A stretch of 64,000 bases of DNA, taken from contig NZ_LMSS01000002.1 in NCBI RefSeq assembly GCF_001429605.1, positions 476,618-540,617 on the forward strand. Reading direction: 5' to 3'. This DNA is from Phycicoccus sp. Soil802 (lineage in GTDB: Bacteria > Actinomycetota > Actinomycetes > Actinomycetales > Dermatophilaceae). The notes below the pieces were generated by a model. The model was not told where the DNA came from. It was given only the letters and a program-made list of their open reading frames with translations, and made no database searches. Shown here piece after piece: positions 7,848 to 58,156 of the stretch (positions within the stretch are counted from its first letter, which is position 1; every line of letters starts with the position of its first letter). Made by a program: the position numbers and the translations under genes.

Positions 7848-7861
7848 GAGGTACGCACGAC

Positions 7862-41999: not shown

Positions 42000-42090
42000 C
42001 AGCTTTATCGGGTCTAGGAGGAACGTTGACCTTCACTCCGGTTCAGAAGTCGAGCGAAGATCAACGTTGTTGCCAGACCCGATAAAGCTG
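42000..42090. repeat. MITE-like palindromic element with CAGCTTTATCGGGTC termini
   Basis: Terminal inverted repeats CAGCTTTATCGGGTC (42000-42014) and GACCCGATAAAGCTG (42076-42090) are perfect. A second nested pair AACGTTGACCTTC/GAAGATCAACGTT has one wobble. The 91-bp element lies between divergent genes, so it is not a terminator. A diverged copy is at 21251-21320. Confidence 0.8.
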
Positions 42091-42106: not shown

Positions 42107-42171
42107 TTGTTCTGAGGGCCCGAATCGCTCTAGAGTTCCGTTGAACAGAAATTGAAATCCGCATTGTGGAA
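42107..42171 (+). promoter_or_regulatory. Promoter with tandem operators before malic enzyme
   Basis: TTGTTC (42107-42112), an 18-bp spacer, TAGAGT (42131-42136), then operators TTCCGTTGAACAGAA (42136-42150) and ATCCGCATTGTGGAA (42157-42171), 21 bp apart. The same geometry occurs at 45557 and 50986. Confidence 0.7.
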
Positions 42172-42186
42172 GATTGAGGTCGAGTG

Positions 42187-43632
42187 ATGTCAGCACCGAG
42201 TCCGGGATACTCCATCACCGTGCGGGCCCAGGCGCCTGTCGCGATCGACACCACCGGTGTCATCGCCGCAGCGGTGGCCGCGGCCGGAGGGGCGCTCACC
42301 GCCCTCGACGTCGTGGAGTCGCGCAGTGACCACCTGGTCGTCGACGTGACCTGCAATGCCTCCGACGCCGACCACGCCGACCAGATCACTGCGCAGATCG
42401 CCGCCGTCCCTGGGGTGACGGTGCGCAAGGTCAGCGACCGCACCTTCCTGCTCCACCTCGGCGGCAAGCTCGAGGTCGTGCCGAAGGTGCCGCTCAAGCA
42501 CCGCGACGACCTGTCCCGCGCCTACACCCCCGGGGTGGCCCGCGTCTGCCTGGCCATCGCCGAGAACCCCGAGGACGCCCGCCGCCTCACCATCAAGCGC
42601 AACACCGTCGCCGTGGTCACCGACGGCTCCGCGGTGCTGGGGCTCGGCAACATCGGGCCTGCTGCGGCGCTCCCGGTGATGGAGGGCAAGGCGGCGCTCT
42701 TCAAGCAGTTCGCGGGGGTCGACGCGTGGCCGGTGTGCCTCGACACCCAGGACACCGAGCAGATCATCATGATCGTCAAGGCGATCGCCCCGGTCTACGG
42801 CGGCATCAACCTCGAGGACATCTCGGCGCCGCGGTGCTTCGAGATCGAGGCCCGGCTGCGCGACGAGCTCGACATCCCGGTCTTCCACGACGACCAGCAC
42901 GGCACCGCGATCGTCACCCTCGCCGCCCTGCGCAACGCCCTGCGCGTCGTGGACAAGAAGCTGGAGGAGGTGCGGATCGTGGTCTCCGGGGTGGGTGCCG
43001 CCGGACACGCCATCGTCCGGCTCCTCGACGCCCAGGGTGCCACCGACATCATCGGGTGTGACCGCCGCGGCGCCCTGGATCCCGAGGCCGACCACGCGGA
43101 CGAGTTCCGCGGCTGGATCGCCCGCAACACCAACCCTTCCCGCACGACCGGGACGCTCAAGGAGGTGCTGCGCGGGGCCGACGTGTTCATCGGCGTCTCG
43201 GCGCCGAACCTGCTCGACGGCGACGACATCGCGGGCATGGCCGACCGGGCCGTCGTCTTCGCGATGGCCAACCCCGACCCCGAGGTCGACCCCGTGGCGG
43301 CAAGCCACCACGCCGCGGTCGTCGCCACGGGCCGCTCCGACTACGCCAACCAGATCAACAACGTCCTTGCCTTCCCCGGCTTCTTCCGCGGACTGCTCGA
43401 CGCCGGTGCCCGCGACATCACCGACGAGATGATGATCGCGGCGGCGGCGGCGATCGCCGACTGCGTCCACCCCGACGAGCTCAACGCCAGCTACATCGTG
43501 CCCAGTGTCTTCGACGCCGACGTCGCGCCAGCCGTGGCCGCCGCGGTGCGACAGGCGGCCGGAGGGCGGCACGCCGACCAGGCCGCGCGGCATACCGGCT
43601 CCGCCACGAGCCGCGAGGCGGCGACCCGGTGA
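42187..43632 (+). CDS. NAD(P)-dependent malic enzyme with N-terminal ACT-like domain
   Basis: 481 residues. Residues about 1-85 form an ACT-like regulatory domain. The catalytic part carries the active-site Tyr in [12 protein letters not shown], the Lys in [12 protein letters not shown], metal ligands in [12 protein letters not shown] and [13 protein letters not shown], and NAD binding in [16 protein letters not shown]. It decarboxylates malate to pyruvate. ATG 42187 is preferred over GTG 42184 because GAGG is 8 nt upstream. Its promoter shares operators with the uricase operon, and it overlaps the CitE-like gene (GTGA), so it probably disposes of malate formed from glyoxylate. Confidence 0.92.
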
Positions 43633-44885
43633 CCGTCGACCTGGCTGCCCTGGGCGCGACCCTCGACGAGCGCCTGCGGCACGCCGATGCCGACCTCGCC
43701 ACGCGCTTCCCCGGCGAGCGACCGGTGCGCCAGCCGGTCCACACGGTCTACGTGCCGGCTGACCGCTACGACTCCGAGCTGGTCGGGCGCTGGCGGACCG
43801 AGGCGGTCGCTTCCCTCGACGAGCACGGCGGTGGCGCCGACGGGGTGGCAGGCGCGTTCGGGCTGCCCCCGACGCTCGCTGCCGACCTGCTCCAGCGGGT
43901 GCGGGACAAGCTCGAGCGTGAGGCCATCGAGGACCTGCGGATCGACTTCGAGGACGGCTACGGCGCGCGGTCCGACGAGGAGGAGGACGCGGCCGTCGAC
44001 GCCGCGGCCGCGGCGCTCCTGCGCGCCGTCGACGCAGGGACCGCGACCGCCTTCAACGGCATCCGGTTCAAGAGCTTCGAGGCCCCCACCCGGCAGCGCG
44101 GCCTGCGCACGTTCGCACGGTTCGTCGAGGCGGTGACCCGCGACGGGCGGCTGCCGGACGGGTTCGTGGTGACCTTCCCCAAGGTCACGTCCGTCGACCA
44201 GGTCGAGGCGATGGTGGTCGCCTGCGAGCAGCTCGAGCAGGGCGTCGGGCTGGCCCCCGGGGCGATCCGGTTCGAGATCCAGGTCGAGACCCCCCAGGCC
44301 ATCGGCGGGCCGGACGGCACGGCCCTGGTCGCCCGGATGGTGCACGCCTCGTCGGGCCGCTGCACCTCGCTGCACTACGGCACCTACGACTACTCCGCCT
44401 CCTGCGGCATCGCGGCGGCCTACCAGTCGATGGAGCACCCAGCGGCTGACCATGCCAAGGCGGTCATGCAGGTCGCCGCTGCGGGGACCGGCGTGCACCT
44501 GTCCGACGGCTCGACCAACGTGCTGCCCGTCGGCGACCACGAGCAGGTCGTGGCGGCCTGGCGGCTGCACGGACGGCTGGTGCGACGTTCGCTCGAGCGC
44601 GGCTACTACCAGGGCTGGGACCTGCACCCGGCCCAGCTGCCGAGCCGGTTCCTCGCGACCTACGCCTTCTACCGCGAAGGTCTGCCGGCGGCGGGCCAGC
44701 GCCTGAAGAACTATGTGGGACAAGTGGATTCGGGCGTCATGGACGAGCCGGCCACGGCACGTGCCCTCTCCGACTTCGTGGTCCGGGCGCTCGACTGTGG
44801 TGCCACGGACGAACAGGAGGTGCAGGCCCTGACCGGCCTGGACCGCGCTGCCATCGACCGCCTGGCCCGTCGTTCGCCCGCCTGA
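43629..44885 (+). CDS. DUF6986-like protein, HpcH/CitE aldolase-malate synthase superfamily
   Basis: 418 residues from GTG 43629. IDFEDGYGARSDEEEDA and AIRFEIQVETPQAIGG (with the Glu/Asp metal ligands of CitE-type lyases) and LHYGTYDYSASCGI place it in the citrate lyase beta/malate synthase superfamily. It is longer than CitE (about 290) and shorter than malate synthase G. It is translationally coupled to malic enzyme and lies under a promoter shared with urate genes. A malate-synthase-like or other glyoxylate-using role is therefore attractive, but this is inference. Confidence 0.8.
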   Translation: MTVDLAALGATLDERLRHADADLATRFPGERPVRQPVHTVYVPADRYDSELVGRWRTEAVASLDEHGGGADGVAGAFGLPPTLAADLLQRVRDKLEREAIEDLRIDFEDGYGARSDEEEDAAVDAAAAALLRAVDAGTATAFNGIRFKSFEAPTRQRGLRTFARFVEAVTRDGRLPDGFVVTFPKVTSVDQVEAMVVACEQLEQGVGLAPGAIRFEIQVETPQAIGGPDGTALVARMVHASSGRCTSLHYGTYDYSASCGIAAAYQSMEHPAADHAKAVMQVAAAGTGVHLSDGSTNVLPVGDHEQVVAAWRLHGRLVRRSLERGYYQGWDLHPAQLPSRFLATYAFYREGLPAAGQRLKNYVGQVDSGVMDEPATARALSDFVVRALDCGATDEQEVQALTGLDRAAIDRLARRSPA

Positions 44886-44890
44886 CCGCC

Positions 44891-44919
44891 TGGCGTCCCT
44901 CCTCGCCTCGTTGACGCCA
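44891..44919 (+). terminator. Weak hairpin after the CitE-like gene
   Basis: TGGCGTC and GACGCCA form a 7-bp stem with a 15-nt loop, 6 bp after the stop. There is no T-tract. Confidence 0.35.
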
Positions 44920-44947
44920 CGTCGCTGACCTCAGCGGGGCGCGCGGG

Positions 44948-44953
44948 TAGGTT
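44948..44953 (+). promoter_or_regulatory. Leaderless -10 element for HTH regulator
   Basis: TAGGTT lies 6 nt before ATG 44960; no Shine-Dalgarno is visible. Confidence 0.45.
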
Positions 44954-44959
44954 GGCCGC

Positions 44960-45472
44960 ATGCGCGTGCGGGTGGAGTTCACGACCGAGCCGTTCCATGG
45001 CGAGGACGACCAGCTGCCGGCGCACGTCACCGCGTCCGCCGACGCGCTGAGGTATGCCGGGTTGTCACCCGACCTGGGACCGCTCGGCACGTCCGTGGAG
45101 GGCGAGGCCGACGTGGTCGTCGACGCCGTGGCCGCGGCGCTCAAGGAAGCCATGTCCCACGGAGCGACCCGGGTGACGCTCACCCTGGGGGACGTCGACG
45201 CCGTCACCGCCTCTGCGCCGGTCGCTGGTGCCACGGACTTCACCGACGGGCTGTCGCGGCTCATCGCCGACGTCGAGCGCGAGCTCGGTGGCGCGCTGGC
45301 CACCCTGCCACGCGCCGAGAAGCAGCACGCCGTGCGGCTGCTGGAGGAGCGCGGGGCGTTCGAGATGCGCCGTAGCGCGGAGACCGTGGCGGAGGCGCTG
45401 GGCCTGACCCGCTTCACCGTCTACAACTACCTGAACCGGATCCGCGACTCGGCGGCCGAGCCCACCGGCTGA
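44960..45472 (+). CDS. Regulator: MTH1187/thiamine-binding-like domain fused to DauR-type HTH
   Basis: 170 residues. Residues 1-75 (RVRVEFTTEPFHGEDDQLPA, LGTSVEGEADVVVDAVAAAL) resemble the MTH1187/YkoF small-ligand fold. Residues about 105-165 hold a helix-turn-helix like the C-terminus of YheO/DauR (RLLEERGAFEMRRSAETVAE followed by GLTRFTVYNYLNRIRD). It is probably a ligand-responsive regulator, and it directly precedes the uricase promoter by 84 bp, so it is a candidate for one of the shared operators here. Both domain assignments are by pattern; no ligand is known. Confidence 0.78.
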   Translation: MRVRVEFTTEPFHGEDDQLPAHVTASADALRYAGLSPDLGPLGTSVEGEADVVVDAVAAALKEAMSHGATRVTLTLGDVDAVTASAPVAGATDFTDGLSRLIADVERELGGALATLPRAEKQHAVRLLEERGAFEMRRSAETVAEALGLTRFTVYNYLNRIRDSAAEPTG

Positions 45473-45545
45473 CGCGGCATACCCATCCCTGGGATCTCGG
45501 CGACCGCTCGTCGCAAGGGCACCGAACTTTTGAGGCGACAACTTT

Positions 45546-45560
45546 TCAACAAACTGTTGA
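45546..45560. promoter_or_regulatory. Palindromic operator TCAACA-N3-TGTTGA before uricase
   Basis: A perfect 6-bp inverted repeat, TCAACA and TGTTGA around AAC, overlaps the -35 of the uricase promoter. The same operator with spacer GTT occurs in the xanthine dehydrogenase promoter at 62258-62272. Confidence 0.65.
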
Positions 45561-45621
45561 CTGGGTCACACCATCGCATTTATGGTTCCATCATTCGTAA
45601 ACAGGTTTCCACCATTCGGAA
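45557..45621 (+). promoter_or_regulatory. Uricase promoter with tandem operators
   Basis: TTGACT (45557-45562), an 18-bp spacer, TATGGT (45581-45586), then operators TTCCATCATTCGTAA (45586-45600) and TTCCACCATTCGGAA (45607-45621), 21 bp apart. Binding would cover the transcription start, so repression is expected. Confidence 0.75.
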
Positions 45622-45700
45622 GATCTTCGAATCGCTCGGGAAGCCATCCGCGCCACCCACGCCTGACCCGCCAGGGTCGACGGGCACCGCAAGGAGCACC

Positions 45701-46609
45701 ATGAGCTTCGTCCTCGGACCCAACCAGTACGGCAAGGCGGAGAACCGAGTCGTCCGCGTCTACCGCGACACCGCCCGCCACGAGATCCGCGACCTCAACG
45801 TGTCGACCGCCCTGCGCGGCGACTTCACCGAGGCGCACACCACCGGTGACCAGGCCAACGTCCTGCCCACCGACACCCAGAAGAACACCGCCTTCGCCTT
45901 CGCCAAGGAGCACGGCGTCACCTCCCCGGAGGACTACGCCCTCACCCTCGGCCAGCGCTTCCTCGACGTGACACCCGCCGCGAGCGCCAGCCGGATCGAG
46001 GTCGAGGAGTACGCCTGGGACCGCATCGAGGTCGGCGGCACCGGTCACGACCACGCATTCGTGAAGCGGGGTGGCGAGGTACGCACGACCGTCGTCACCC
46101 GCGACCGCAGCGGTGCCGAGCCGCGCGCCTGGGTCGTCTCCGGTGTGAAGGACCTCGTCGTCCTCAAGTCCACCGGCTCGGAGTTCAAGGGCTACCTCAA
46201 GGACGAGTACACGACGCTGAAGGAGACCGACGACCGCATCCTCGCGACCTCGCTCGTGGCGCGGTGGCGTTACGAGACCACCGAGGGCGTGGACTGGAAC
46301 AAGTCGTTCGACGACGTGCGGTCCCTCCTCCTCGAGACGTTCGCGACCACCTACAGCCGCGCGCTGCAGGAGAGCCTCTACGCGATGGGCTCCGCCGTGT
46401 TGGCGGCCCACCCGGAGGTCGCCGAGATCAAGTTCTCCGCCCCCAACAAGCACCACTTCCTGGTCGACCTCGCCCCGTTCGGGCTGGACAACCCGGGTGA
46501 GGTGTTCATCGCCGCCGACCGTCCCTACGGGTTGATCGAGGCCACCGTCCAGCGCGAGAACGGCTCCGACGCCGGCGACGCCTGGCTCACCGTGCCCGGC
46601 TTCTGCTGA
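45701..46609 (+). CDS. uox: Urate oxidase (uricase)
   Basis: 302 residues, the usual uricase length. YGKAENRVVRVYRD carries the catalytic Lys, NVLPTDTQKNTAFAFAKEHG the conserved Thr-Asp segment, and VLKSTGSEFKGYLKDEYTTL and SAPNKHHFLVDL the urate-binding and dimer motifs. It oxidises urate with O2 to 5-hydroxyisourate without cofactor. RBS AAGGAG is 5 nt before ATG 45701. It heads an operon with the urate permease/OHCU fusion, OHCU decarboxylase, HIU hydrolase and 8-oxoguanine deaminase, and is preceded by the tandem-operator promoter. Confidence 0.94.
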   Translation: MSFVLGPNQYGKAENRVVRVYRDTARHEIRDLNVSTALRGDFTEAHTTGDQANVLPTDTQKNTAFAFAKEHGVTSPEDYALTLGQRFLDVTPAASASRIEVEEYAWDRIEVGGTGHDHAFVKRGGEVRTTVVTRDRSGAEPRAWVVSGVKDLVVLKSTGSEFKGYLKDEYTTLKETDDRILATSLVARWRYETTEGVDWNKSFDDVRSLLLETFATTYSRALQESLYAMGSAVLAAHPEVAEIKFSAPNKHHFLVDLAPFGLDNPGEVFIAADRPYGLIEATVQRENGSDAGDAWLTVPGFC

Positions 46610-46614
46610 TGCAC

Positions 46615-46690
46615 TGACGCACCAACGCGCCACACCACCGCGCCACACCACAGCACCACAGCACCGCACCACGTCCTGACCGCCCGCGTC
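46615..46690 (+). other. C-rich, G-poor intercistronic tract (rut-like)
   Basis: The tract carries repeated GCGCCACACCAC and AGCACCACAGCACC units between uricase and the permease. The RNA would be C-rich and unstructured, resembling a Rho-utilisation site that could reduce expression of the downstream genes. Confidence 0.4.
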
Positions 46691-46802
46691 GCGTCACAGC
46701 CGCAAGGACCCCCACCGGCCGGTCACGACGTCCAGCACGCCCTCTCCCGCACGCCCTCCTCCTGCACCCCCTCCTCCCGGAGCCTCCCGAAAGGTGCCTG
46801 TC

Positions 46803-48734
46803 ATGAGCGCAGCCACCGCAACACCCCAGTCCCAGCGCGCCTCCCGCCACCCGGTCGACGAGGTCCTGCCCATCCCGAAGCTCGCGATCTACGGCTTCCA
46901 GCACGTGCTGGCGTTCTACGCCGGCGCGGTCATCGTGCCGATCCTCCTGGCCAGCGCCATCGGCCTGTCGACCCAGGAGCTCATCCACCTGATCAACGCC
47001 GATCTCTTCACCTGCGGCATCGCCTCCATCATCCAGTCCGTCGGGTTCTGGAAGGTCGGCGTGAAACTGCCTCTCCTGCAAGGGGTCACGTTCACCGCCG
47101 TCTCGCCGATGATCGCCATCGGCATGGCCGCCGGGGGCGGCACCGACGGCCTCCTGGTCATCTACGGGGCGGTGATCGTGGCGGGGCTGTCCACCTTCCT
47201 CGTGGCTCCCTACTTCAGCCAGCTCATCCGCTACTTCCCGCCGGTGGTCACCGGTTCGGTGATCACGATCATCGGCCTGGCACTGCTGCCGGTCGCCGCC
47301 GCCGATGCGGCTGGTGGCGCGGGCCCGACCCTCGACCCGTCGAGCGGACGAAACCTCGCCTACGCCCTCGGGACGCTGGCCCTCATCGTCGCGATCCAGC
47401 GGATCTTCAAGGGCTTCATGGCGACCGTGGCCGTCCTCATCGGACTGGTGGTCGGCACCGTCATCGCGTGGATCCTCGGCGACGCGCACTTCGACTCTGT
47501 GTCGGGCTCGGGCTGGGTCGGGGTCACCACGCCGTTCCACTTCGGCTGGCCCAAGTTCTCGGCGGCCGCGATCATCTCGATGATCGTCGTCATGCTCATC
47601 ACCGCCGTCGAGACCACCGGTGACGTGTTCGCCACCGGAGAGATCGTCGAGAAGCGGGTCGGCAAGGAGGACATCGCCCGGGCCCTGCGCGCCGACGGCC
47701 TGGCCACCACGATCGGTGGCGTCTTCAACTCCTTCCCCTACACCTGCTTCGCCGAGAACGTCGGCCTGGTGCGACTGACCCGGGTCAAGAGCCGCTACGT
47801 CGTCGCCACCGCCGGGCTGATCATGATCATCATCGGCCTGATCCCCAAGGCCGGTGCCATCGTCGCGGGTATCCCGCACCCGGTGCTCGGCGGCGCCGCG
47901 CTGGCGATGTTCGCGACCGTCGCCGTGGTGGGCTTCCAGACCTTGTCGCGGGTCGACTTCCACGACCACCGCAACGTCGTCATCGTGGCGACCGCGGTCG
48001 GCCTCGCGATGTATGTCACCGCGCAGCCCGACGTCGCCAAGGCGGTGCCGGACTGGGCCCAGATCATCCTGGGCTCGGGCATCACGCTCGGCTCGATCAC
48101 GGCCATCGTCCTCAACTTCCTGTTCCACCACGTCGGCTCGAGCCGTGGTCCGGCCGTGGCCGGTGCGCCCGGTGCGCTCGTGCGGCTCAACGAGGTCAAC
48201 CAGATGTCCCGTGAGGACTTCGCCGACACCTTCGGCAGCCTCTTCCAGGGCCCGCGGTGGGTGGTCGAGCGCGCCTACGACTCGCGGCCGTTCAGCGACA
48301 CCAGCGACCTGCGGCGGGCCTTCCAGGAGGCGCTGTTCTCGGCGAACGAGGACGAGCAGCGCCAGCTGATCGACTCCTACCCCGACCTCGGTGCCGACAG
48401 CGTGGCCGAGGGCGACGAGGGGCCCGACTCCCTGCGTGACCAGTCCTCGCTCGGGCTCACCCGGCTCGACGAGAAGGGCCACGGCGAGCTGGCCGAGCTC
48501 ACCTCGCAGTACCGCGACCGGTTCGGCTTCCCCCTCGTGACGTGTGTGCGCGACCGCGACTCGTTCGACCAGGTCGTGCGCACGGGGTGGGAGCGGCTCA
48601 ACAACTCCCAGGCCCAGGAACACGCCTCGGCCCTCGTCGAGATCGCCAAGATCGCCGGCTACCGGTTTGATGACCTCGTGGCCGACGCCAACCCGATCCA
48701 CTCAGCCCGGACCCGCTTCGTGGAGGGTCGATGA
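46803..48734 (+). CDS. Urate/xanthine permease (NCS2) fused to a degenerate OHCU decarboxylase domain
   Basis: 643 residues. Residues 1-450 form an NCS2 nucleobase:cation symporter with about 12-14 helices, a VETTGDVFATGEI motif near 269 and the NAT signature ENVGLVRLTR at 318-327. Residues about 458-630 form a cytoplasmic OHCU decarboxylase domain (RLNEVNQMSREDFADTFGSL; AQEHASALVEIAKIAGYRFD). The catalytic His is Tyr526 (SYPDLG) and the catalytic Glu is Asp546 (SLRDQ), so the domain may be inactive or altered. ATG 46803 is preferred (AAGG 9 nt upstream). It overlaps a separate intact OHCU decarboxylase gene. Confidence 0.9.
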   Translation: MSAATATPQSQRASRHPVDEVLPIPKLAIYGFQHVLAFYAGAVIVPILLASAIGLSTQELIHLINADLFTCGIASIIQSVGFWKVGVKLPLLQGVTFTAVSPMIAIGMAAGGGTDGLLVIYGAVIVAGLSTFLVAPYFSQLIRYFPPVVTGSVITIIGLALLPVAAADAAGGAGPTLDPSSGRNLAYALGTLALIVAIQRIFKGFMATVAVLIGLVVGTVIAWILGDAHFDSVSGSGWVGVTTPFHFGWPKFSAAAIISMIVVMLITAVETTGDVFATGEIVEKRVGKEDIARALRADGLATTIGGVFNSFPYTCFAENVGLVRLTRVKSRYVVATAGLIMIIIGLIPKAGAIVAGIPHPVLGGAALAMFATVAVVGFQTLSRVDFHDHRNVVIVATAVGLAMYVTAQPDVAKAVPDWAQIILGSGITLGSITAIVLNFLFHHVGSSRGPAVAGAPGALVRLNEVNQMSREDFADTFGSLFQGPRWVVERAYDSRPFSDTSDLRRAFQEALFSANEDEQRQLIDSYPDLGADSVAEGDEGPDSLRDQSSLGLTRLDEKGHGELAELTSQYRDRFGFPLVTCVRDRDSFDQVVRTGWERLNNSQAQEHASALVEIAKIAGYRFDDLVADANPIHSARTRFVEGR

Positions 48735-49225
48735 CCCTGGAGCGCCTCAACGCGCTGCCCGCGTCCGAGCTGGAGGAGCAGCTGACCGCGTGCCTCCCGG
48801 TGCCCAGGTGGGTGGCCGCCGTCCGCGACGGCCGACCGTATGCCGCGTGGCCGGACCTCGAAGCCACCGCCGGCGCCGCCGCCCAGCACCTCGACGACGA
48901 GGAGCTGGAGGCGGCGCTGGCCGGCCACCCGCGGATCGGCGAACGCGCCGCCAGCCCGCACCACAACGCGGCCGCCAGCGCGCGGGAGCAGGCCGGGGTG
49001 GACCCGGCCGACGCCGAGGTGGCGCAGGCTCTCGCGGCCGGCAACGCGGCATACGAAGCACGTTTCGACCGGGTGTTCCTCATCCGGGCGGCAGGTCGCT
49101 CCGCGCCCGAGATCCTCGCCGAGCTCGACCGTCGGCTCGGCAACGACGACGACACCGAGCGTGAAGAGACCGTGACCCAGCTGCGCGAGATCGCGCTGCT
49201 CCGACTCCGACAGGTGGCCTCCTGA
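48731..49225 (+). CDS. uraD: OHCU decarboxylase (stand-alone)
   Basis: 164 residues. LAGHPRIGERA holds the catalytic His66, SAREQAGV the catalytic Glu86, and FDRVFLIRAAGRSAPEIL the substrate-binding region with Arg near the end. It converts 2-oxo-4-hydroxy-4-carboxy-5-ureidoimidazoline to S-allantoin. It is coupled by ATGA to the upstream permease fusion and by TGATG to the HIU hydrolase, giving a contiguous enzyme set. Confidence 0.92.
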   Translation: MTLERLNALPASELEEQLTACLPVPRWVAAVRDGRPYAAWPDLEATAGAAAQHLDDEELEAALAGHPRIGERAASPHHNAAASAREQAGVDPADAEVAQALAAGNAAYEARFDRVFLIRAAGRSAPEILAELDRRLGNDDDTEREETVTQLREIALLRLRQVAS

Positions 49226-49566
49226 TGGGAACCCTCAGCACGCACGTCCTCGACACCAGTCTCGGGAAGCCGGCCGCCGGCATCACGGTCGTGCTGGAGT
49301 CCGTTGCGGGAACGGGCCTCTCGAACGACGTGCTCGGCGACGGCATCACCGACGGGGACGGCCGGGTCGGCAGCATCGGCCCGGAGCGCCTGGAAGCTGG
49401 CGACTACCGGCTCAGGTTCGCCTCGGGTGGCTACTTCTCGGCGCGTGGGGTCGAGGCGTTCTACCCCGAGGTGGTCGTGGTGTTCACGATCGCCGACGCC
49501 GACCAGCACTACCACGTGCCGGTGCTGCTCAACCCGTTCGGCTACTCCACCTACCGGGGGTCGTGA
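49225..49566 (+). CDS. uraH: 5-hydroxyisourate hydrolase
   Basis: 113 residues, a transthyretin-related protein. STHVLDTSLGKPAAGITV contains the active-site His, Arg58-type residue follows in ERLEAGDYRLRF, and the C-terminal YRGS tetrapeptide signature is intact (GYSTYRGS). It hydrolyses 5-hydroxyisourate to OHCU, between uricase and OHCU decarboxylase. The start shares a base with the uraD stop. Confidence 0.95.
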   Translation: MGTLSTHVLDTSLGKPAAGITVVLESVAGTGLSNDVLGDGITDGDGRVGSIGPERLEAGDYRLRFASGGYFSARGVEAFYPEVVVVFTIADADQHYHVPVLLNPFGYSTYRGS

Positions 49567-49568
49567 CC

Positions 49569-50966
49569 ATGTCGGCCGTCCCCCGGAAGGTCCTGGACGG
49601 TTGCACGGTGGTGACGATGGACCCGGCTCGCACGGAGCACGCCGTCGGCCACCTCGTCGTCGAAGGGACGCGCATCGTCGCCGTCGCTGCGGGTCGCTAT
49701 GTCGACGATGGCAGCGAAGCAGACGTGGTCGATGCCACGGGTTGCCTGGCCACTCCGGGCCTGGTCAACACCCACCACCACCTCTACCAGTGGGCCACGC
49801 GCGGTCTCGCGGTCGATGCCACGCTCTTCGGCTGGCTGACGGAGCTCTACCCGGTCTGGGGCGGCATCGACGAGGACGTCGTGGGTGCTGCTGCAGCAGC
49901 AGGCCTGGGCTGGCTCGCGCGCACCGGCTGCACGACGTCGATGGACCACCACTACGTCTTCCCCGCCCAGGGTGGTGACGTCCTGGGTGCCGAGGTGGAG
50001 GCTGCGCGGCGAATCGGCCTGCGGTTCCTGGCGACCCGGGGCTCGATGGACCTCGGTCAGAGCCAGGGCGGGCTGCCGCCCGACCACGTGGTCGAGGACC
50101 TCGACACGATCCTGGCCGCGACGGCGGCCGCGGTCGACGCCCACCACGACGCGTCAACCGACTCGATGCTGCGGATCGGGGTCGCCCCGTGCTCGCCCTT
50201 CTCGGTGACCGCAGACCTTCTCCGCGAGTCGGCGGCCCTGGCCCGCGACCGTGGGGTGCGGCTGCACACCCACCTGGCCGAGACGGTCGACGAGGGGCGC
50301 TACTGCGCGGAGCGGTTCGGGCTCAGCCCGCTGGCCTACCTGGAGTCGCTCGGCTGGCTCGGCGACGACGTGTGGCTCGCGCACGGCATCCACTTCGACG
50401 ACCCGGCGATCGGCACCTTGGCGGCCACGGGCACCGGCGTCGCCCACTGCCCGTCGTCGAACGCCCGCCTCGGCGCCGGCATCGCCCGCACCCGCGACCT
50501 GCGTGATGCTGGAGTGCCGGTCGGGCTCGGGGTGGACGGCGCGGCATCGAACGAGGCGTCCTCGCTGGTCGAGGAGGCGCGTCACGCCTTGCTCTTCGCC
50601 CGCGCCAGGGGCGGCCCGGAGGCGCTCGGAGTGCGTGACGCACTCGAGCTCGCCACGATCGGTGGCGCCCGGGTGCTCGGCTGGGACGACCAGATCGGCT
50701 CCCTGGAGGTCGGCAAGCAGGCCGACATCGCCCTCTGGCGGCTCGACGGCCTGGGTCATGCCGGCGTCGTCGACCCGGTGGCTGCCCTCGTGCTCGGCTC
50801 GCAGCCCCCACTGGAGCTGTTGCTCGTCGGCGGCAGACCCGTCGTGTCCCGCGACCGGCTCGTCACGGCCGACGAGGAATCGCTTGCGGCACAGGCGGTC
50901 TCGGCAGGGGAGCGGTTGCTCGCCCGGCACCGCGACTCGGCCGGATATATCTCCGCCACCCGCTGA
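49569..50966 (+). CDS. 8-oxoguanine deaminase
   Basis: 465 residues of the amidohydrolase superfamily. VNTHHHLYQWATRG holds the metal histidines (HxH near 68), LHTHLAETVDE and LAHGIHFDD further ligands, GVAHCPSSNARLGAGIA the substrate loop and GLGVDGAASNE the catalytic Asp. It deaminates 8-oxoguanine to urate, feeding the uricase operon. ATG 49569 is preferred because a GGGGG RBS sits 8 nt upstream; GTG 49563 overlaps the uraH stop. Confidence 0.88.
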   Translation: MSAVPRKVLDGCTVVTMDPARTEHAVGHLVVEGTRIVAVAAGRYVDDGSEADVVDATGCLATPGLVNTHHHLYQWATRGLAVDATLFGWLTELYPVWGGIDEDVVGAAAAAGLGWLARTGCTTSMDHHYVFPAQGGDVLGAEVEAARRIGLRFLATRGSMDLGQSQGGLPPDHVVEDLDTILAATAAAVDAHHDASTDSMLRIGVAPCSPFSVTADLLRESAALARDRGVRLHTHLAETVDEGRYCAERFGLSPLAYLESLGWLGDDVWLAHGIHFDDPAIGTLAATGTGVAHCPSSNARLGAGIARTRDLRDAGVPVGLGVDGAASNEASSLVEEARHALLFARARGGPEALGVRDALELATIGGARVLGWDDQIGSLEVGKQADIALWRLDGLGHAGVVDPVAALVLGSQPPLELLLVGGRPVVSRDRLVTADEESLAAQAVSAGERLLARHRDSAGYISATR

Positions 50967-50985
50967 GACGCCAGCCTGCCCGGTC

Positions 50986-51050
50986 TTGACGCCTCGACGG
51001 GATGAGTCTTACTCTCTCACTAGTTGGAAAATGACTTCCACAATACGGAA
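50986..51050 (+). promoter_or_regulatory. Promoter with tandem operators before hydroxypyruvate isomerase
   Basis: TTGACG (50986-50991), an 18-bp spacer, TACTCT (51010-51015), then operators TCTCACTAGTTGGAA (51015-51029, weaker) and TTCCACAATACGGAA (51036-51050), 21 bp apart. Confidence 0.72.
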
Positions 51051-51078: not shown

Positions 51079-51903
51079 GTGACGGACCACGGACTGCGCT
51101 ACGAGGTGAACTGCTCGATCCTGTTCACCGAGCTGCCGCTCCTCGAGCGGCCCGCCGCCGCGAAGGCCGCAGGCTTCGACGCCGTCGAGTTCTGGTGGCC
51201 GTGGCCCGACCAGCCGGTGCCCGGTGACCGCGAGGTCGACGCGTTCGCCGGCGCCGTCGAGGACGCCGGGGTGCAGCTGGTCGGCCTGAACTTCTTCGCG
51301 GGCGACCTGGCCGGGCCGGACTGTGGAGTCCTCTCCATCCCCGACCGCGTGCAGCAGTTCCGCGACAACGTCGACGTCACCGTGGGCCTCGGCGAGCGAC
51401 TGGGTGTCTCGGCCTGCAACGCCCTCTTCGGCAACCGGGTCGAGGGGGTGTCGGCGCAGGAGCAGGACGAGCTCGGCCGCGAGTCGATCGCGTTCGCCGC
51501 CAAGGCAGCCGACCGGATCGGGGCGACCGTCCTCGTCGAGTCGGTCAGCGGCCCCAAGCCCTACCCGTTGCGCACCGCGGCGGACGCCGTGGCTGTCGTC
51601 GACGACGTGCGGGCCACAGGAGCGAGCAACGTCGCCTTCCTGCTCGACCTCTATCACCTGGCCGCCAACGGCGACGACCTCGACGCGGCCATCGCGGCAT
51701 ACACGGGCCACACGGCTCACGTGCAGATCGCCGATGCGCCGGGTCGCGGCGAGCCCGGCTCGGGTGACCTCGACCTCCAGGGCCACCTCGGCGCCCTCGC
51801 CGCGAGCGGGTATGCCGGGTGGGTGGGTCTGGAGTACAAGCCCACCACCGCGACCACTCCAGAGAGCTTCGGCTGGCTGCCGCGCGAACGCCGCGGCGCC
51901 TGA
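51079..51903 (+). CDS. hyi: Hydroxypyruvate isomerase
   Basis: 274 residues, TIM-barrel sugar-isomerase family. NCSILFTELPLLERPAAAKA, FDAVEFWWPWPD, GLNFFAGDLAGPDCG, LLDLYHLAANGDD and HVQIADAPGRGEPGSGDLDL are Hyi signatures including the metal-binding Glu, Asp, His set. It interconverts hydroxypyruvate and tartronate semialdehyde. GTG 51079 is supported by AAAAGGAG 6 nt upstream. It heads the gcl operon under the third tandem-operator promoter. Confidence 0.9.
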   Translation: MTDHGLRYEVNCSILFTELPLLERPAAAKAAGFDAVEFWWPWPDQPVPGDREVDAFAGAVEDAGVQLVGLNFFAGDLAGPDCGVLSIPDRVQQFRDNVDVTVGLGERLGVSACNALFGNRVEGVSAQEQDELGRESIAFAAKAADRIGATVLVESVSGPKPYPLRTAADAVAVVDDVRATGASNVAFLLDLYHLAANGDDLDAAIAAYTGHTAHVQIADAPGRGEPGSGDLDLQGHLGALAASGYAGWVGLEYKPTTATTPESFGWLPRERRGA

Positions 51904-51996: not shown

Positions 51997-52878
51997 ATGA
52001 CCACCATCGCCTTCATCGGACTCGGCATCATGGGCAGCCCCATGGCCGTCCACCTCCAGGACGCCGGGCACGACGTCATCGGCTACAACCTGCACCCCGA
52101 CAAGACCCAGCCGCTCGTGGACGCCGGTGGGACCGCAGCCGCATCGGTCGCCGATGCCGTGCGCGACGCCCAGGTGGTCGCGGTCATGGTGCCCGACAGC
52201 CCCGACGTGCAGGACGTGCTGCTCGGCGAGGACGGCGTCTTCGCCAACGCCAAGGAGGGCACGCTGGTGATCGACTTCTCCAGCATCCGCCCGGACGTCA
52301 CGGTCGAGCTCGCGAAGGCCGCACAGGCCAAGGGGTTCCGGCTCCTCGACGCCCCGGTCTCCGGCGGCGAGGCGGGCGCCAGGAACGCCGCGCTGTCGAT
52401 CATGGTCGGCGGCTCGGCCGAGGACTTCGCCGAGGCCAAGCCGCTCTTCGACGCGGTCGGCAAGACCATCGTCCACGTGGGCGGCAACGGCGCGGGACAG
52501 ACCGTCAAGGCCGCCAACCAGCTCATCGTCGCGGCCAACATCCAGGCGCTGGCCGAGGCGGTGGTCTTCCTCGAGGCGTACGGCGCCGACCTCGGACCTG
52601 CCCTCGACGTGCTCGGCGGCGGTCTGGCCGGTTCCAAGGTGCTCGACCAGAAGCGCGACAACATGGCCAAGAAGTCGTTCGAGCCGGGGTTCCGGATCGA
52701 CCTGCACCACAAGGACCTCGGGATCGTGACCAGCGCCGCGCGTGAGGCGGGGGTGGTCGTACCCCTCGGTGGGCTCGTCGCCCAGCTGATGGCCTCGGCC
52801 CGGGCGAACGGCGACGGCGGCCTCGACCACTCGGCCCTGCTGCGCGGCGTCCAGCGCCTCTCCGGTCAGACCCCCTGA
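51997..52878 (+). CDS. glxR: 2-hydroxy-3-oxopropionate (tartronate semialdehyde) reductase
   Basis: 293 residues of the beta-hydroxyacid dehydrogenase family. IAFIGLGIMGSPMAVHLQDAG is the Rossmann motif at residues 4-24, DAPVSGGEAGARNAALSIMV the substrate loop, and GAGQTVKAANQLIVAANIQA contains the catalytic Lys. It reduces tartronate semialdehyde, made by Gcl, to D-glycerate. RBS AAGGAG is 7 nt before the ATG. Confidence 0.93.
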   Translation: MTTIAFIGLGIMGSPMAVHLQDAGHDVIGYNLHPDKTQPLVDAGGTAAASVADAVRDAQVVAVMVPDSPDVQDVLLGEDGVFANAKEGTLVIDFSSIRPDVTVELAKAAQAKGFRLLDAPVSGGEAGARNAALSIMVGGSAEDFAEAKPLFDAVGKTIVHVGGNGAGQTVKAANQLIVAANIQALAEAVVFLEAYGADLGPALDVLGGGLAGSKVLDQKRDNMAKKSFEPGFRIDLHHKDLGIVTSAAREAGVVVPLGGLVAQLMASARANGDGGLDHSALLRGVQRLSGQTP

Positions 52879-52909
52879 CCCTTCCCGAACTTCCTTTCCA
52901 CTCCTCCCA

Positions 52910-52953
52910 TTCGATGTAAACCTGCCGGGATTCACCGGCGCCTTTACATCGAA
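52910..52953. repeat. Intergenic hairpin, TTCGATGTAAA arms with CCGG core
   Basis: Perfect arms TTCGATGTAAA/TTTACATCGAA with inner GCCGG/CCGGC around GATTCA. It is located between glxR and gcl, about 20 bp before the gcl RBS. Confidence 0.85.
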
Positions 52954-52982
52954 CCGGGGACAGCAAACCCAGGAGCACCACC

Positions 52983-54761
52983 ATGGCACGCATGACCGCG
53001 GCCCAAGCGGCCGTCGAGATCCTCAAGAAGGAAGGGGTGACGAACGTCTTCGGCCTGCCCGGAGCAGCGATCAACCCCTTCTACAAGGCGATGAAGACCA
53101 ACGGCGGCCTGCACCACACGCTGGCCCGCCACGTCGAGGGCGCCTCCCACATGGCCGAGGGCTACACCCGGGCCAAGGCCGGCAACATCGGCGTCTGTGT
53201 CGGCACGAGCGGTCCCGCCGGCACCGACATGATCACCGGGCTGTACTCGGCCAGCGCCGACTCGATCCCGATCCTGTGCATCACCGGCCAGGCGCCGGTC
53301 GCCAAGCTGCACAAGGAGGACTTCCAGGCCGTCGACATCGCCTCGATCGCCAAGCCGCTCACCAAGATGGCGGTCACGGTCCTCGAGCCGGCCCAGGTCC
53401 CCGGCACGTTCCAGCAGGCCTTCCACCTGATGCGCTCGGGACGCCCGGGCCCGGTGCTGATCGACCTGCCCATCGACGTCCAGATGGCCGAGATCGAGTT
53501 CGACGTCGAGACCTACGAGCCGCTGTCGACCTACAAGCCGGCTGCCACCCGTCCCCAGGTCGAGAAGGCGCTCGACCTGCTGGCCGCCAGCGAGCGACCG
53601 CTGATCGTCGCCGGCGGTGGCATCATCAACGCCGACGCGGCTGACCTGCTGGTCGAGCTGGCCGAGCTGACCGGGGTGCCCGTCATCCCGACGCTCATGG
53701 GCTGGGGCACCATCCCCGACGACCACGAGCTCAACGCCGGCATGGTCGGGCTGCAGACCAGCCACCGCTACGGCAACGCCACCATGCTCGAGTCGGACTT
53801 CGTCCTCGGCATCGGCAACCGCTGGGCCAACCGCCACACCGGTGACGTCGAGACCTACACGAAGGGCCGCACGTTCGTGCACGTCGACATCGAGCCGACC
53901 CAGATCGGCCGCGTCTTCGCGCCCGACTACGGGATCGTCTCCGACGCGAAGGCAGCCCTCCAGCTCTTCGTCGAGGTGGCCCGCGAGCGGCGCGAGGCCG
54001 GCCGCCTGGCCGACCGCACCGCGTGGGCGCAGTCCTGCCGCGACCGCAAGGCGACCATGTGGCGCAAGACCAACTTCGACGTCACGCCGGTCAAGCCGCA
54101 GCGGGTCTACCAGGAGATGAACCGCGCGTTCGGCAAGGACGTCCGTTACGTCTCGACCATCGGCCTGTCCCAGATCCAGGCAGCCCAGCTGCTGCACGTC
54201 TACAAGGACCGGCACTGGATCAACGCGGGGCAGGCCGGCCCGCTCGGCTGGACCGTCCCGGCCGCGCTGGGGGTCGCCACAGCGGTCCCGGACGAGACCG
54301 TCGTCGCCCTCTCCGGTGACTACGACTTCCAGTTCATGATGGAGGAGCTGGCGGTCGGGGCGCAGTTCAACATCCCCTACATCCACGTCCTGGTGAACAA
54401 CGCCTACCTCGGCCTGATCCGGCAGTCGCAGCGCGGCTTCGACATGGACTACTGCGTCCAGCTGTCGTTCGACAACATCAACAGCCCCGAGGTCGGCGGC
54501 TACGGCGTGGACCACGTCAAGGTCGTCGAAGGCCTGGGCTGCAAGGCGATCCGCGTCTTCGACCCCGAGGAGATCGCGCCCGCGCTGGAGAAGGCCAAGG
54601 CCATGGCGCAGGAGTACCGCGTGCCGGTCGTCGTCGAGGTCATCCTGGAGAGGGTCACCAACGTCTCGATGGGCCTGTCCATCGACGGCGTCACCGAGTT
54701 CGAGGAGCTGGCCGCCGGCGGCGCCGACGCCCCGACCGCGCTCTTCGCCAACCTGGACTAG
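52983..54761 (+). CDS. gcl: Glyoxylate carboligase
   Basis: 592 residues, a ThDP-dependent enzyme of the acetolactate synthase family. In [20 protein letters not shown] the usual catalytic Glu of ThDP enzymes is Val, which is the hallmark of Gcl. The ThDP-binding [20 protein letters not shown] segment (GDx-N motif) is near residue 447. It joins two glyoxylates to tartronate semialdehyde with release of CO2. It lies between glxR and glycerate kinase. Confidence 0.95.
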
Positions 54762-54769
54762 GGCTGCCG

Positions 54770-55900
54770 ATGCCCCGCGTCCTGCTCGCCCCCGACAAGT
54801 TCAAGGGCACCCTGACGGCCGCTGAGGTCGCGGGGCACCTGTCGGACGGCCTGCGCTCGGTCCGCCCCGACGTCGAGGTGGTCGTCGTCCCCGTCGCCGA
54901 CGGGGGCGACGGCACCCTCGCCGCAGCGGTGGCTGCGGGGTTCACGCGGGTGCCGGTGCGGGCCACCGGCCCGACGGGTATGCCGTGTGAGTCGGCCTAC
55001 GGGGTCCGCGGCGCCGAGGCCGTGGTCGAGCTGGCGGAGGTCTCCGGGCTCGCGCAGCTGCCGGGTGGCCGGGCCGCCCCGCTCGAGGCCTCCAGCAGGG
55101 GCACCGGCGAGCTGATCGCCGCCACCCTGGACGCGGGCGCGCGTCGCGTGGTCGTCGCCATCGGCGGCAGCGCGTGCACCGACGGCGGGGCCGGGTTGCT
55201 CCAGGCGCTCGGCGCCACCATCCGCACCGCGACCGGGAGCGAGGTGCGCCCCGGGGGAGCCGGGCTGCTCGACGCCGCCCGGCTGGACCTGAGCGGGCTC
55301 CGCCGCCGCCTGGCCGGGGCGGAGCTGGTCGTGGCGTGCGACGTCGACAACCCCCTCACGGGGAGCCGCGGTGCGGCCGCGGTCTACGGCCCGCAGAAGG
55401 GCGCCGGCCCCGAGGACGTCGAGCTGCTGGACTCCGCCCTGACCCGGTGGGCCGACCTGGTGGCGCGGGCCACCGGTCGCGACCAGCGCAACGCACCAGG
55501 AGCAGGAGCCGCCGGAGGGGTCGGCTTCGCGCTGTTGGCCGTGCTCGGCGCGACGACCCGACCAGGGGCCGAGCTCGTCTTCGAGCTGACCGGCCTCCCT
55601 GACGCCGTCGCCGGGGCCGACCTCGTCGTGACCGGCGAGGGATCGCTGGACGCCCAGACCCTGCACGGCAAGGCCCCGGCCGCCGTGGCCGCGCTGGCGC
55701 GCGACAAGGGCGTGCCGGCCGTGGCGGTGGCCGGTCAGGTCACGCTCACGCCTGCCGAGCTGGGAGCGGCAGGCCTGCACGCGGCATACGCGCTCGTCGA
55801 CGAAGCGGCCACGCGCCAGGAGGCGCTCGACGCACCGGGACCACTGCTCCAACGGATCGGCGCGCGCATCGCGCGCGAGCACCTCGGAGGTGCGCTGTGA
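54770..55900 (+). CDS. glxK: Glycerate kinase (GlxK/GarK family)
   Basis: 376 residues. LLAPDKFKGTLTAAEVAGHL, VPVADGGDGTLAA and GGSACTDGGAGLLQALGA are the signatures of type I glycerate kinases; GEGSLDAQTLHGKAPAAVAA is the C-terminal motif. It phosphorylates glycerate to 2-phosphoglycerate, the end of the glyoxylate branch. It starts 8 bp after gcl, and its stop overlaps the FAH gene start by 4 bp. Confidence 0.94.
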   Translation: MPRVLLAPDKFKGTLTAAEVAGHLSDGLRSVRPDVEVVVVPVADGGDGTLAAAVAAGFTRVPVRATGPTGMPCESAYGVRGAEAVVELAEVSGLAQLPGGRAAPLEASSRGTGELIAATLDAGARRVVVAIGGSACTDGGAGLLQALGATIRTATGSEVRPGGAGLLDAARLDLSGLRRRLAGAELVVACDVDNPLTGSRGAAAVYGPQKGAGPEDVELLDSALTRWADLVARATGRDQRNAPGAGAAGGVGFALLAVLGATTRPGAELVFELTGLPDAVAGADLVVTGEGSLDAQTLHGKAPAAVAALARDKGVPAVAVAGQVTLTPAELGAAGLHAAYALVDEAATRQEALDAPGPLLQRIGARIAREHLGGAL

Positions 55901-56766
55901 GGTTCGCCAGGGTCGGCCCACCGGGGGCCGAGCGTCCCGTCGTCGTCGCCGACGACGGCTCTCTCCTCGACCTGTCGAGGGTGACACCCGACATCGACGC
56001 GGCCTTCCTCGGCCGGCTCGACACGGTCGATACTGTTGCGCTGCCACGCCTTTCGCGGGGCGAGGACCTGCGGTTCGGTGCGCCCTTGACCCGCCCCGGC
56101 AAGGTGGTCGGCATCGGCCTCAACTACCGCGACCACGCTGCCGAGGCGAGGGTGCCGCTGCCCGCCGAGCCGGTCGTGTTCCTCAAGGCGCCGACGGCGG
56201 TCTGCGGCCCCACCGACGACATCCGGCTGCTGCCCCAGTCGGTCACGACCGACTACGAGGTCGAGCTCGGCGTCGTCCTCGGTGCCCCGCTCACGCACGA
56301 GCGCGACCACGACCGCGCGCTCGAGGCGGTCGCCGGCTACGTGCTGGCCCACGACGTCTCCGACCGCGCGCTCCAGCTCGAGCGTGGCGGCACCTGGACC
56401 AAGGGCAAGTCGGCCGACACCTTCTGCCCGGTCGGCCCGTGGCTGGTCACGCCCGAGGAGCTGGGCGACCCCGGCGACGTCAGGTTGCGCTTGTCGGTCA
56501 ACGGCAGCCCCCGCCAGGACGGGTCGACCGGCGACATGCTGTTCTCCGTCGGTGAGCTGCTCTGCTACGTCAGCGGCCTGATGACCCTCGAGCCAGGTGA
56601 CCTGGTCATCACCGGCACCCCGGCCGGAGTGGCCATGGGCCAACCCGAGCCGCGCCCCTACCTGCGCCACGGCGACGTCGTGGTCGTCGACGGGGGAGTC
56701 CTCGGGAGCCACCGGAGCCGGGTCGTCGACCACGCCCGTTCGGCCACACCGGCAGCGGCGAGCTGA
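55897..56766 (+). CDS. FAH-family hydrolase, ureidoglycolate lyase candidate
   Basis: 289 residues from GTG 55897. [34 protein letters not shown] (metal Glu residues), [20 protein letters not shown] with CPVGPWLV, and [15 protein letters not shown] define the fumarylacetoacetase family. No aromatic gene is near it; it is coupled to glycerate kinase and 16 bp before allantoinase. That position and the absence of any other ureidoglycolate lyase make that activity plausible, but it is a guess. Confidence 0.82.
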
Positions 56767-56782
56767 GTCAGGGATTACGGTC

Positions 56783-58156
56783 ATGACAGGTTCGGTGGAC
56801 GGCTCCGGGAAGAGGTCGGGCGTGACGGCAGAGGTGGTCCTGCGGGCGAGGCGGGCGGTGGTCGACGGTGCAGAGGTCGCGGTCGCGGTCTCCCTCGCGG
56901 GCGGACGCATCGTCGCGATCGACCCCTACGACACCGAGGTGCCCGGCGCCCGCGTGGTCGAGCTGGCCGACGACGAGGTGCTGCTCCCCGGCCTCGTCGA
57001 CGCCCACGTCCACGTGAACGAGCCGGGCCGCACCGACTGGGAGGGCTTCGCCAGCGCCACCCGGGCGGCGGCGGCCGGTGGCGTCACGACGATCATCGAC
57101 ATGCCCCTCAACTCGATCCCGCCGACGGTGAACGTGGCGGCCCTCGAGGAGAAGCGGGCCGTCGCCCGCGACCAGGCCTACGTCGACGTGGGGTTCTGGG
57201 GCGGTGCCGTGCCCGGCAACCTGCCCGACCTGCGACCGCTCCACGAGGCCGGCGTCTTCGGGTTCAAGTGCTTCCTGCTCCACTCCGGCGTCGACGAGTT
57301 CCCCCACCTGTCGGCGGCCGAGCTGCGCGAGGCGCTCGCCGAGACGGCGACCTTCGACGGCCTCGTCATCGTGCACGCCGAGGACGAGCAGACCATCGAG
57401 TCCGCACCGCAACCGCACGGCCAGGGGTATGCCGGGTTCCTGGGTTCACGTCCCAAGGAGGCCGAGGAGCGGGCCATCGCCGAGGTCATCGACGCGACGC
57501 GGGAGACCGGTGGCCGGGCGCACATCCTGCACCTGTCCGACGCCGACGCGATCCCGTTGATCGCCAAGGCCCAGGCGGAGGGGTTGCGGCTGTCGGTCGA
57601 GACCTGCCCGCACTACCTGACCCTCGACGCCGCGGAGATCCCCGACGGGGCGACGCAGTTCAAGTGCTGCCCGCCGATCCGTGAGCACGACAACCAGGAC
57701 CGGCTCTGGGCCGGGCTCGAGGACGGTGTGATCCGCACCGTGGTCTCCGACCACTCGCCGTGCACCGAGGACCTCAAGCGGTTCGACTCCGGCGACTTCG
57801 GCGAGGCGTGGGGCGGGATCGCCGGCCTCCAGCTCGGCCTCCCGGCGGTCTGGACCGAGGCGCGCGATCGAGGGCACTCGCTCGTCGACGTCGTGCGCTG
57901 GATGGGTGAGGGGCCGGCCGACCAGGTGGGCCTCACCGACCGCGGGCGGATCGCGGTCGGCGCCACCGCCGACCTCGTCGTCTTCGCACCCGACGAGTCG
58001 TTCACCGTCGACGTCGCGTCCCTGCGCCACAAGAACCCCGTGTCGGCGTATGCCGGCCGCACGCTCACCGGGGCGGTGCGCCAGACCTGGCTGCACGGCA
58101 CACCGGTCGACATCGAGGCCGACCCGCGCGGTCGGCTGCTCACGAGAACGTCATGA
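56783..58156 (+). CDS. allB: Allantoinase
   Basis: 457 residues of the cyclic amidohydrolase family. [18 protein letters not shown] holds the first metal histidines, [14 protein letters not shown] the bridging Lys, VIVHAEDEQ and [12 protein letters not shown] further histidines, and [12 protein letters not shown] the catalytic Asp. The set matches allantoinase rather than dihydropyrimidinase. It opens allantoin to allantoate. ATG 56783 is used; an in-frame GTG at 56822 is an alternative start, with the first residues poorly conserved. Confidence 0.92.

Follow-up and report, generated by a model that had tools for sequence, protein, structure and literature searches.

Three promoters in a purine-catabolism gene cluster of Phycicoccus sp. 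Soil802 carry the same pair of operator-like sites, and these are very probably the operators of one repressor of the IclR family, the actinobacterial AllR. The promoters precede the malic enzyme-DUF6986 operon, the uricase gene and the hyi gene, and all of them lie in the stretch of 64,000 nt that was analysed (the window; G000:C2:476618-540617 of a genome of 4.29 Mb in 9 contigs). The cluster extends within the window from the malic enzyme gene at 42187 through the gene for the small subunit of xanthine dehydrogenase. Binding by the IclR-family protein, repression, a tetrameric state and the effector are predicted from the sites, from their conservation and from the distribution of the regulator among relatives.

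Three promoters share a pair of sites with fixed spacing

All six sites and the three promoters reported in a preliminary description of the window were found in place. The promoter of the malic enzyme-DUF6986 operon (42107..42136, plus strand) has a -35 element TTGTTC at 42107-42112 and, after a spacer of 18 bp, a -10 element TAGAGT at 42131-42136. The uricase promoter (45557..45586, plus strand) is composed of TTGACT (45557-45562), an 18-bp spacer and TATGGT (45581-45586), and the hyi promoter (50986..51015, plus strand) of TTGACG (50986-50991), again 18 bp and TACTCT (51010-51015). At each promoter two 15-bp sites resembling TTCC-N7-GGAA are located 21 bp apart, and the first site begins on the last base of the -10 element. 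For malic enzyme the predicted AllR-type sites are TTCCGTTGAACAGAA (site 1, 42136..42150, plus strand) and ATCCGCATTGTGGAA (site 2, 42157..42171, minus strand, on which it reads TTCCACAATGCGGAT). The corresponding plus-strand sites are TTCCATCATTCGTAA (site 1, 45586..45600) and TTCCACCATTCGGAA (site 2, 45607..45621) for uricase, and TCTCACTAGTTGGAA (site 1, 51015..51029) and TTCCACAATACGGAA (site 2, 51036..51050) for hyi. The promoter-proximal sites (site 1) have one or two mismatches to TTCC-N7-GGAA.

Single TTCC-N7-GGAA sites were no more frequent in the window than chance predicts (10 matches against 10.83 expected) and therefore prove nothing on their own; the pairs and their conservation carry the case. 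When two mismatches were allowed, the paired pattern occurred at just three places in the 4.29 Mb genome, and these were the three promoters. A spread of the paired motif over random positions, which the preliminary description had named as refuting its proposal, was thus not seen. With up to three mismatches, 15 places were found versus 9 for the reversed control. Over 58 genomes, 78 pairs with at most two mismatches stood against 29 control matches, which amounts to about 0.5 control matches per genome. A refined single-site pattern with at most one mismatch gave 11 matches in the whole genome (control: 0 forward, 1 reverse), of which 5 belong to the three operons and to the regulator's own site and the remaining 6 are scattered.

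The pair is conserved in related genomes

The cluster is kept in 9 other genomes of the genus, and in each of these a pair with 21-bp spacing and 1-3 mismatches was present at all three promoters; the same held for G017, which belongs to another genus. We compared the geometry for 33 promoters, that is, in 11 genomes for each promoter (10 of the same genus including the genome studied here, and G017); the distant genomes G020, G028, G040, G041 and G048 stand outside this count. In 30 of the 33 promoters, the -10 element had the form TA...T and shared its last base with the start of site 1. The spacer between -35 and -10 was 18 bp long in 21/33 and 17 bp long in 10/33, and could not be assigned in 2/33, so that the claim of an invariant spacer of exactly 18 bp had to be given up for the relatives. 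Only the hyi promoter had 18 bp throughout (11/11); the uricase promoter had 18 bp in 5/11 and 17 bp in 6/11, and the malic enzyme promoter had 18 bp in 5/11, 17 bp in 4/11 and no TTG in 2/11.

In site 2, TCC and the G that opens the GGAA arm were invariant (33/33). The deviations in site 1 were specific for each promoter and mostly kept, as TCTCAC at hyi (8/11 genomes) and CGTAA at uricase (7/11). The imperfection of site 1 may be a compromise with the overlapped -10 element, or site 1 may be a weaker dimer site that is filled cooperatively.

For the distant genomes we recorded the best-matching pair in the 350 bp before each gene. Upstream of malic enzyme it had 2 (G028), 3 (G048), 4 (G040) or 5 (G041) mismatches, upstream of hyi 2 (G041) or 3 (G028), and upstream of uricase 1 (G020) or 3 (G040); the uricase genes of the other three distant genomes are considered below.

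Pairs co-occur with an IclR-family regulator

The preliminary description had suggested looking for an IclR/AllR-like gene past the right edge of the window. Such a gene (P0001, G000:C2:546978-547778) is indeed present 6.4 kb past this edge, divergent from the gene for malate synthase A. Its product scored 57.6 bits with the HTH_IclR model (cut-off 22) and 136.4 bits with IclR_C (cut-off 24), which places it in the IclR family. The genome encodes seven proteins of this family, and the co-occurrence test covered P0001 alone, the one nearest to the window. The promoter of the regulator gene itself harbors a strong site, TTCCATGATACG[AG]AA, in 10/10 genomes of the genus that have the regulator, followed 21 bp further on by a degenerate TCTCATT stretch in 9/10. 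At L008, malate synthase A (6603-8252, minus strand) and the AllR-type regulator (8361-9161, plus strand) are divergent and flank one strong, conserved site. The genomes G013, G029, G033 and G034 also contain second IclR paralogues that are more distant (33-51% identical), one of which, at G033:C1:3661652, has a paired site just upstream.

We counted the regulator as present in 25 genomes (at least 45% identity, alignment A1); six genomes with matches of only 32-38% (G005, G022, G030, G039, G052 and G056) were counted as lacking it. Among the 58 relatives, 23 had both the IclR protein and pairs, 29 had neither, 2 had the IclR protein only and 4 had pairs only (Fisher p = 5e-10). The association held when the own genus was counted once (p = 6e-7), and pairs of the reversed control pattern showed no association with the IclR protein in the same 58 relatives (p = 0.5). 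G005, a member of the genus, lacks the IclR regulator, uricase, DUF6986 and any pair. That the pairs track the IclR protein across genomes supports the earlier proposal of one common regulator, apparently of the IclR type, which would bind to them.

We also scanned the surroundings of the regulator in 80 named loci (1.50 Mb), which are the best 80 of 590 relatives and were retrieved by the IclR alignment A1 alone. The set contains no record of S. coelicolor, and L100, L101 and L170 apparently duplicate G026, G017 and G028; of these three only L170 has a pair. A total of 89 pairs was found in 58/80 loci, versus 0 pairs of the reversed control. The distance of 21 bp accounted for these 89 pairs, versus at most 5 pairs at any other distance between 15 and 41 bp; 12 pairs had a distance of 42 bp, which is 2 x 21 bp. 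Allantoinase was encoded divergently beside the regulator in 45/80 loci, and the pair was located between the two genes in 34 of these 45. Malate synthase A (query: the L177 protein, TIGR01344) was present in 50/80 loci, with a pair at most 250 bp upstream in 29/50. Many of the Streptomyces loci harbor the same operator pair, and in G028, G029, G033 and G034 the pair is directly beside an IclR gene of the AllR-type group.

Several observations weigh against the assignment of the pairs to an AllR. G016 and G035 have the IclR protein and no pair with at most two mismatches anywhere in the genome, and stretches of 2.8 kb and 19 kb around their regulators contained no pair with at most three mismatches. 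Conversely, G012, G015, G021 and G050 have pairs and lack the IclR protein; these pairs are probably due to chance, given the control rate of 29 matches in 58 genomes. The 350 bp before the distant uricase genes of G048, G041 and G028 contained no pair (6, 7 and 7 mismatches for the best match), though in these genomes uricase seems to lie inside an operon. A pair was absent from 22/80 named loci, some of which are cut by contig ends, and the 80 loci are not independent, because many are from Streptomyces. The motif of E. coli AllR as given in PMC8222616, KTTGGAAWAWTWTTCCAAC, has its arms in the opposite order to the sites in the window. Finally, the curated models of E. coli AllR (NF007548, 113.3 bits, cut-off 406), E. 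coli IclR (NF008601, 147.5 bits, cut-off 380) and BhcR (NF045644, 192.6 bits, cut-off 350) were all missed by a wide margin. The protein is therefore best called an actinobacterial AllR outside those equivalogs. The relatives from Streptomyces are 57-65% identical to it, and its gene neighbourhood and the operator pair agree with a predicted AllR of the actinobacterial, Streptomyces type.

Alternative explanations for the paired sites

Instead of simply repressing, the IclR protein might activate its targets or combine both functions like BhcR, which we consider improbable. BhcR of Paracoccus denitrificans, a glyoxylate-responsive IclR protein that is described as an in vivo activator of the genes for the beta-hydroxyaspartate cycle (PMC11323563), is by score still its best curated relative and closest curated equivalog; it differs as an activator, and the cut-off of its model was not reached. 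At all three promoters, however, the sites start on the last base of the -10 element and extend downstream over the transcription start, an arrangement that suits blocking and not recruitment of the polymerase. Moreover, the homologue of S. coelicolor is described as repressing allantoin genes (PMC12772271).

It is less probable still that the sites belong to another regulator, although genes for a PF01910-HTH_22 protein (44960-45472), a GntR-type regulator (59026-59715) and a PaaX-type protein (41117-41974) are closer to them than the AllR-type gene, and the other IclR-family proteins of the genome are further candidates. While pairs occurred in 58/80 named loci, the PF01910-HTH_22 protein was found in 20/80 and GntR and PaaX proteins in none (E 1e-15, about 10 kb on each side). 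Among the 58 relatives, the PF01910-HTH_22 protein was present in 12 genomes versus 27 with pairs, and it tracks a different palindrome (see below). That the pair adjoins the IclR gene of the AllR-type group in the four genomes named above also argues for AllR.

A mere by-product of shared promoter composition or of recent promoter duplication in the cluster, with no common regulator, is scarcely credible even though all three pairs are within 9 kb, since 89 pairs stood against 0 control pairs in the named loci, the three promoters differ beyond the conserved arms and each retains its own features across the genus, and the same pair recurs between allantoinase and the regulator (34/45 loci) and between DUF6986 and the regulator (8/11).

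Proposed action of AllR and extent of the regulon

One AllR dimer would bind to each 15-bp TTCC-N7-GGAA site, and two dimers that are 21 bp, or two helical turns, apart on the same face of the DNA would probably form a tetramer. Bound AllR would cover the end of the -10 element and the transcription start and would block initiation, which is the simplest reading since the sites begin at the -10 element and run over the start. Late products of purine degradation (glyoxylate, perhaps allantoate) would bind to the effector domain, the tetramer would loosen, and the three operons would open together. The AllR gene itself is preceded by such a site as well.

The residues of E. coli IclR that contact the oxygens of glyoxylate and pyruvate are listed in Table 1 of PMC11323563. 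These five contacts align to G153, V154, D205, S230 and S232 of the regulator, four of them being identical and one changed from A to V. All 25 sequences of alignment A1 share both serines, and the glycine varies among them. Since four of the five glyoxylate-contact residues are identical, a glyoxylate-like effector appears likely.

The regulon would lead from urate over allantoin to glyoxylate and would join these enzymes to two outlets for glyoxylate. In the first, the products of gcl, glxR and hyi and glycerate kinase would yield glycerate. Malate synthase A and malic enzyme together convert glyoxylate to pyruvate, and this would be the second. The place of malic enzyme in the regulon would thereby be explained, as it would form a glyoxylate-oxidising cycle with malate synthase A. 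In this way a compact regulon from urate to central carbon metabolism could be delineated from sequence alone, and the tandem TTCC-N7-GGAA sites at 21 bp may serve as a signature of actinobacterial AllR that can be read from genomes.

Malic enzyme and DUF6986 as members of the regulon

The proposed link of malic enzyme and a CitE-like gene, which is the DUF6986 gene, to the catabolism of urate and glyoxylate was strengthened by other families, in which both genes adjoin the regulator. This is the case in G028, G041 and G048, and in G040 malate synthase is located in between. Of the 58 relatives, 24 had both DUF6986 and the IclR protein, 31 had neither, 1 had the IclR protein only and 2 had DUF6986 only. 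The respective numbers for uricase were 23 (both), 27 (neither), 2 (IclR only) and 6 (uricase only), and DUF6986 thus tracks the regulator more closely than uricase does. In 11/80 named loci the DUF6986 gene was divergent from the regulator at a distance of at most 500 bp, and 8 of these 11 loci had the pair between the two genes.

A structure model of DUF6986 predicted from 13 sequences (mean pLDDT 81.6, pTM 0.82) matched malate synthases, CitE, citramalyl-CoA lyase and malyl-CoA lyase in Foldseek (best E 1e-7); among the 50 matches listed, the query-normalised TM-scores were only 0.30-0.54 and the identity was at most 19%. The match to Pfam HpcH_HpaI was just over the cut-off (28.8 versus 25 bits). 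A phmmer search with DUF6986 against solved structures gave nothing useful. No paper in the library searched mentions DUF6986, and among the papers listed none describes this regulon in its title or the opening of its abstract. It is no more than a fair guess from the predicted fold that DUF6986 catalyses another glyoxylate- or acyl-CoA-condensing reaction. As a simple reading, a replacement of malate synthase by DUF6986 was rejected, since malate synthase A is also encoded in this genome, next to the regulator.

A second palindrome at the uricase promoter

A perfect palindrome, TCAACA-N3-TGTTGA, overlaps the -35 element of the uricase promoter (45546-45560), and a second copy lies upstream of xdhA (62258-62272). 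No further exact copy occurs in the genome. The exact palindrome was present in 20/20 named loci with the small PF01910-HTH_22 protein, compared to 5/60 loci without it (p = 1.5e-14). Linkage to uricase confounds this association, because uricase is present in all 20 loci. Five other loci have uricase and lack the protein: L144, L158 and L179 had no palindrome with at most one mismatch, and L142 and L151 had copies only at allantoinase. All 12 of the 58 relatives that have the protein carry the palindrome before uricase; the copy of G009 has one mismatch, and that of G028 precedes a row of OHCU decarboxylase, HIUase and uricase genes. Among 17 relatives with uricase and without the protein, an exact copy was found in three (G020, G026 and G040), in no case near uricase. 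In many Streptomyces loci (e.g., L177:9754), a variant of the palindrome, often TCAACGTTCTGTTGA, directly precedes allantoinase.

We tentatively suggest, with chances that we put slightly below even, that the uricase promoter is a gate with two inputs and that DUF6986 is a glyoxylate-condensing enzyme so far overlooked in the malate synthase/CitE superfamily. AllR, responding to a late product (glyoxylate or allantoate), would act over the transcription start, and the PF01910-HTH_22 regulator, in which a domain like that of thiamine-binding proteins is fused to HTH_22, would act over the -35 element, would also control xdhA and would sense an early purine. A family without assigned function, DUF6986, and a candidate new family of regulators are linked to purine catabolism by the findings presented here.

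Comparison with known regulators

The AllR of Streptomyces coelicolor, studied by Navone et al. in 2015, is reportedly an IclR-family regulator of allantoin and glyoxylate genes. AllR of this Streptomyces type reportedly binds upstream of allantoin genes, and allantoate or glyoxylate releases it from their promoters. The regulator described here resembles it in belonging to the IclR family, and most of the Streptomyces relatives have allantoinase as a neighbour; malate synthase A is often close by, and the same pair is present in many cases. In contrast to the S. coelicolor system, the predicted regulon additionally comprises uricase and malic enzyme-DUF6986, and the regulator gene adjoins malate synthase A instead of allantoinase.

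According to PMC11323563, E. coli AllR represses the allantoin and glyoxylate operons and binds to the gcl promoter, and glyoxylate lowers its DNA binding; IclR-family membership and the allantoin/glyoxylate operons are thus common to both systems. E. coli IclR, the aceBAK repressor, is described in the same article as a tetramer that responds to glyoxylate and pyruvate and controls the operon of the glyoxylate shunt. Its glyoxylate-binding residues are largely shared with the regulator, whereas its motif as presented in PMC8222616, TGGAAATNATTTCCA, is built differently from the sites in the window.

PMC8222616 further describes an IclR-family motif class, WTTYCRYW3RYGRAAW, and, for 94 orthologous groups, sites in tandem at a distance of 18-22 nt, which are read as tetramer binding. 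The half-sites of this class are the same as those found here, and our centre-to-centre distance of 21 bp falls within the published range. The sites thus show the tandem arrangement of this class, and the co-occurrence points to the IclR protein as the binder. The available part of PMC8222616 names no AllR regulon of this lineage. Tandem operators of the IclR family and an AllR regulon are already known; the lineage-specific gene content of this regulon is new, as are the leads on DUF6986 and the second operator.

Further genes and features of the cluster

Malic enzyme (42187..43632, plus strand; Pfam malic and Malic_M) starts with ATG at 42187, and the listed open reading frame begins at GTG 42184. 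It is followed on the plus strand by DUF6986 (43629..44885), a protein with a predicted fold of the malate synthase/CitE/malyl-CoA lyase type that co-occurs with the regulator. Between the gene for the PaaX-type protein and the malic enzyme promoter, a perfect 16-bp inverted repeat (CAGCTTTATCGGGTCT / AGACCCGATAAAGCTG) is present at 42000-42015 and 42075-42090. In 19 stretches from relatives the repeat was absent at up to three mismatches, with the exception of one unpaired match with three mismatches in L082.

Uricase (45701..46609, plus strand; Pfam Uricase) and a fusion of a xanthine/uracil-type permease with an OHCU decarboxylase domain (46794..48734, plus strand) are followed by genes for OHCU decarboxylase, HIUase and 8-oxoguanine deaminase (48731..50966, plus strand), which apparently belong to the uricase operon, since the genes overlap or are adjacent. 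An OHCU decarboxylase domain is thus encoded twice, in the permease fusion (46794-48734) and then in a second, stand-alone gene.

The hyi gene (51079..51903, plus strand) encodes a TIM-barrel protein with the Pfam domain AP_endonuc_2. The name, for hydroxypyruvate isomerase, is that of the preliminary description; it fits the neighbouring glxR and gcl, and apart from the neighbours its basis is the Pfam domain. The genes 3' of hyi encode 2-hydroxy-3-oxopropionate reductase (glxR), glyoxylate carboligase (gcl) and glycerate kinase (51997..55900, plus strand), all with scores over the cut-offs. After the hyi operon, a fumarylacetoacetate hydrolase-like gene with scores below the cut-offs and the allantoinase gene allB occupy 55897..58156 (plus strand). 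The gene after allantoinase is presumably allE. The GntR-type regulator, the NCS1-type permease that follows it and the gene for the small subunit of xanthine dehydrogenase, the last listed gene of the cluster inside the window, each had a best match below the curated cut-off. The gene between the NCS1-type permease and the xanthine dehydrogenase gene is one that we take to be racemase-like. To the right of the window, genes for a molybdopterin-binding subunit, guanine deaminase and malate synthase A (minus strand) precede the divergent gene of the IclR-family regulator.

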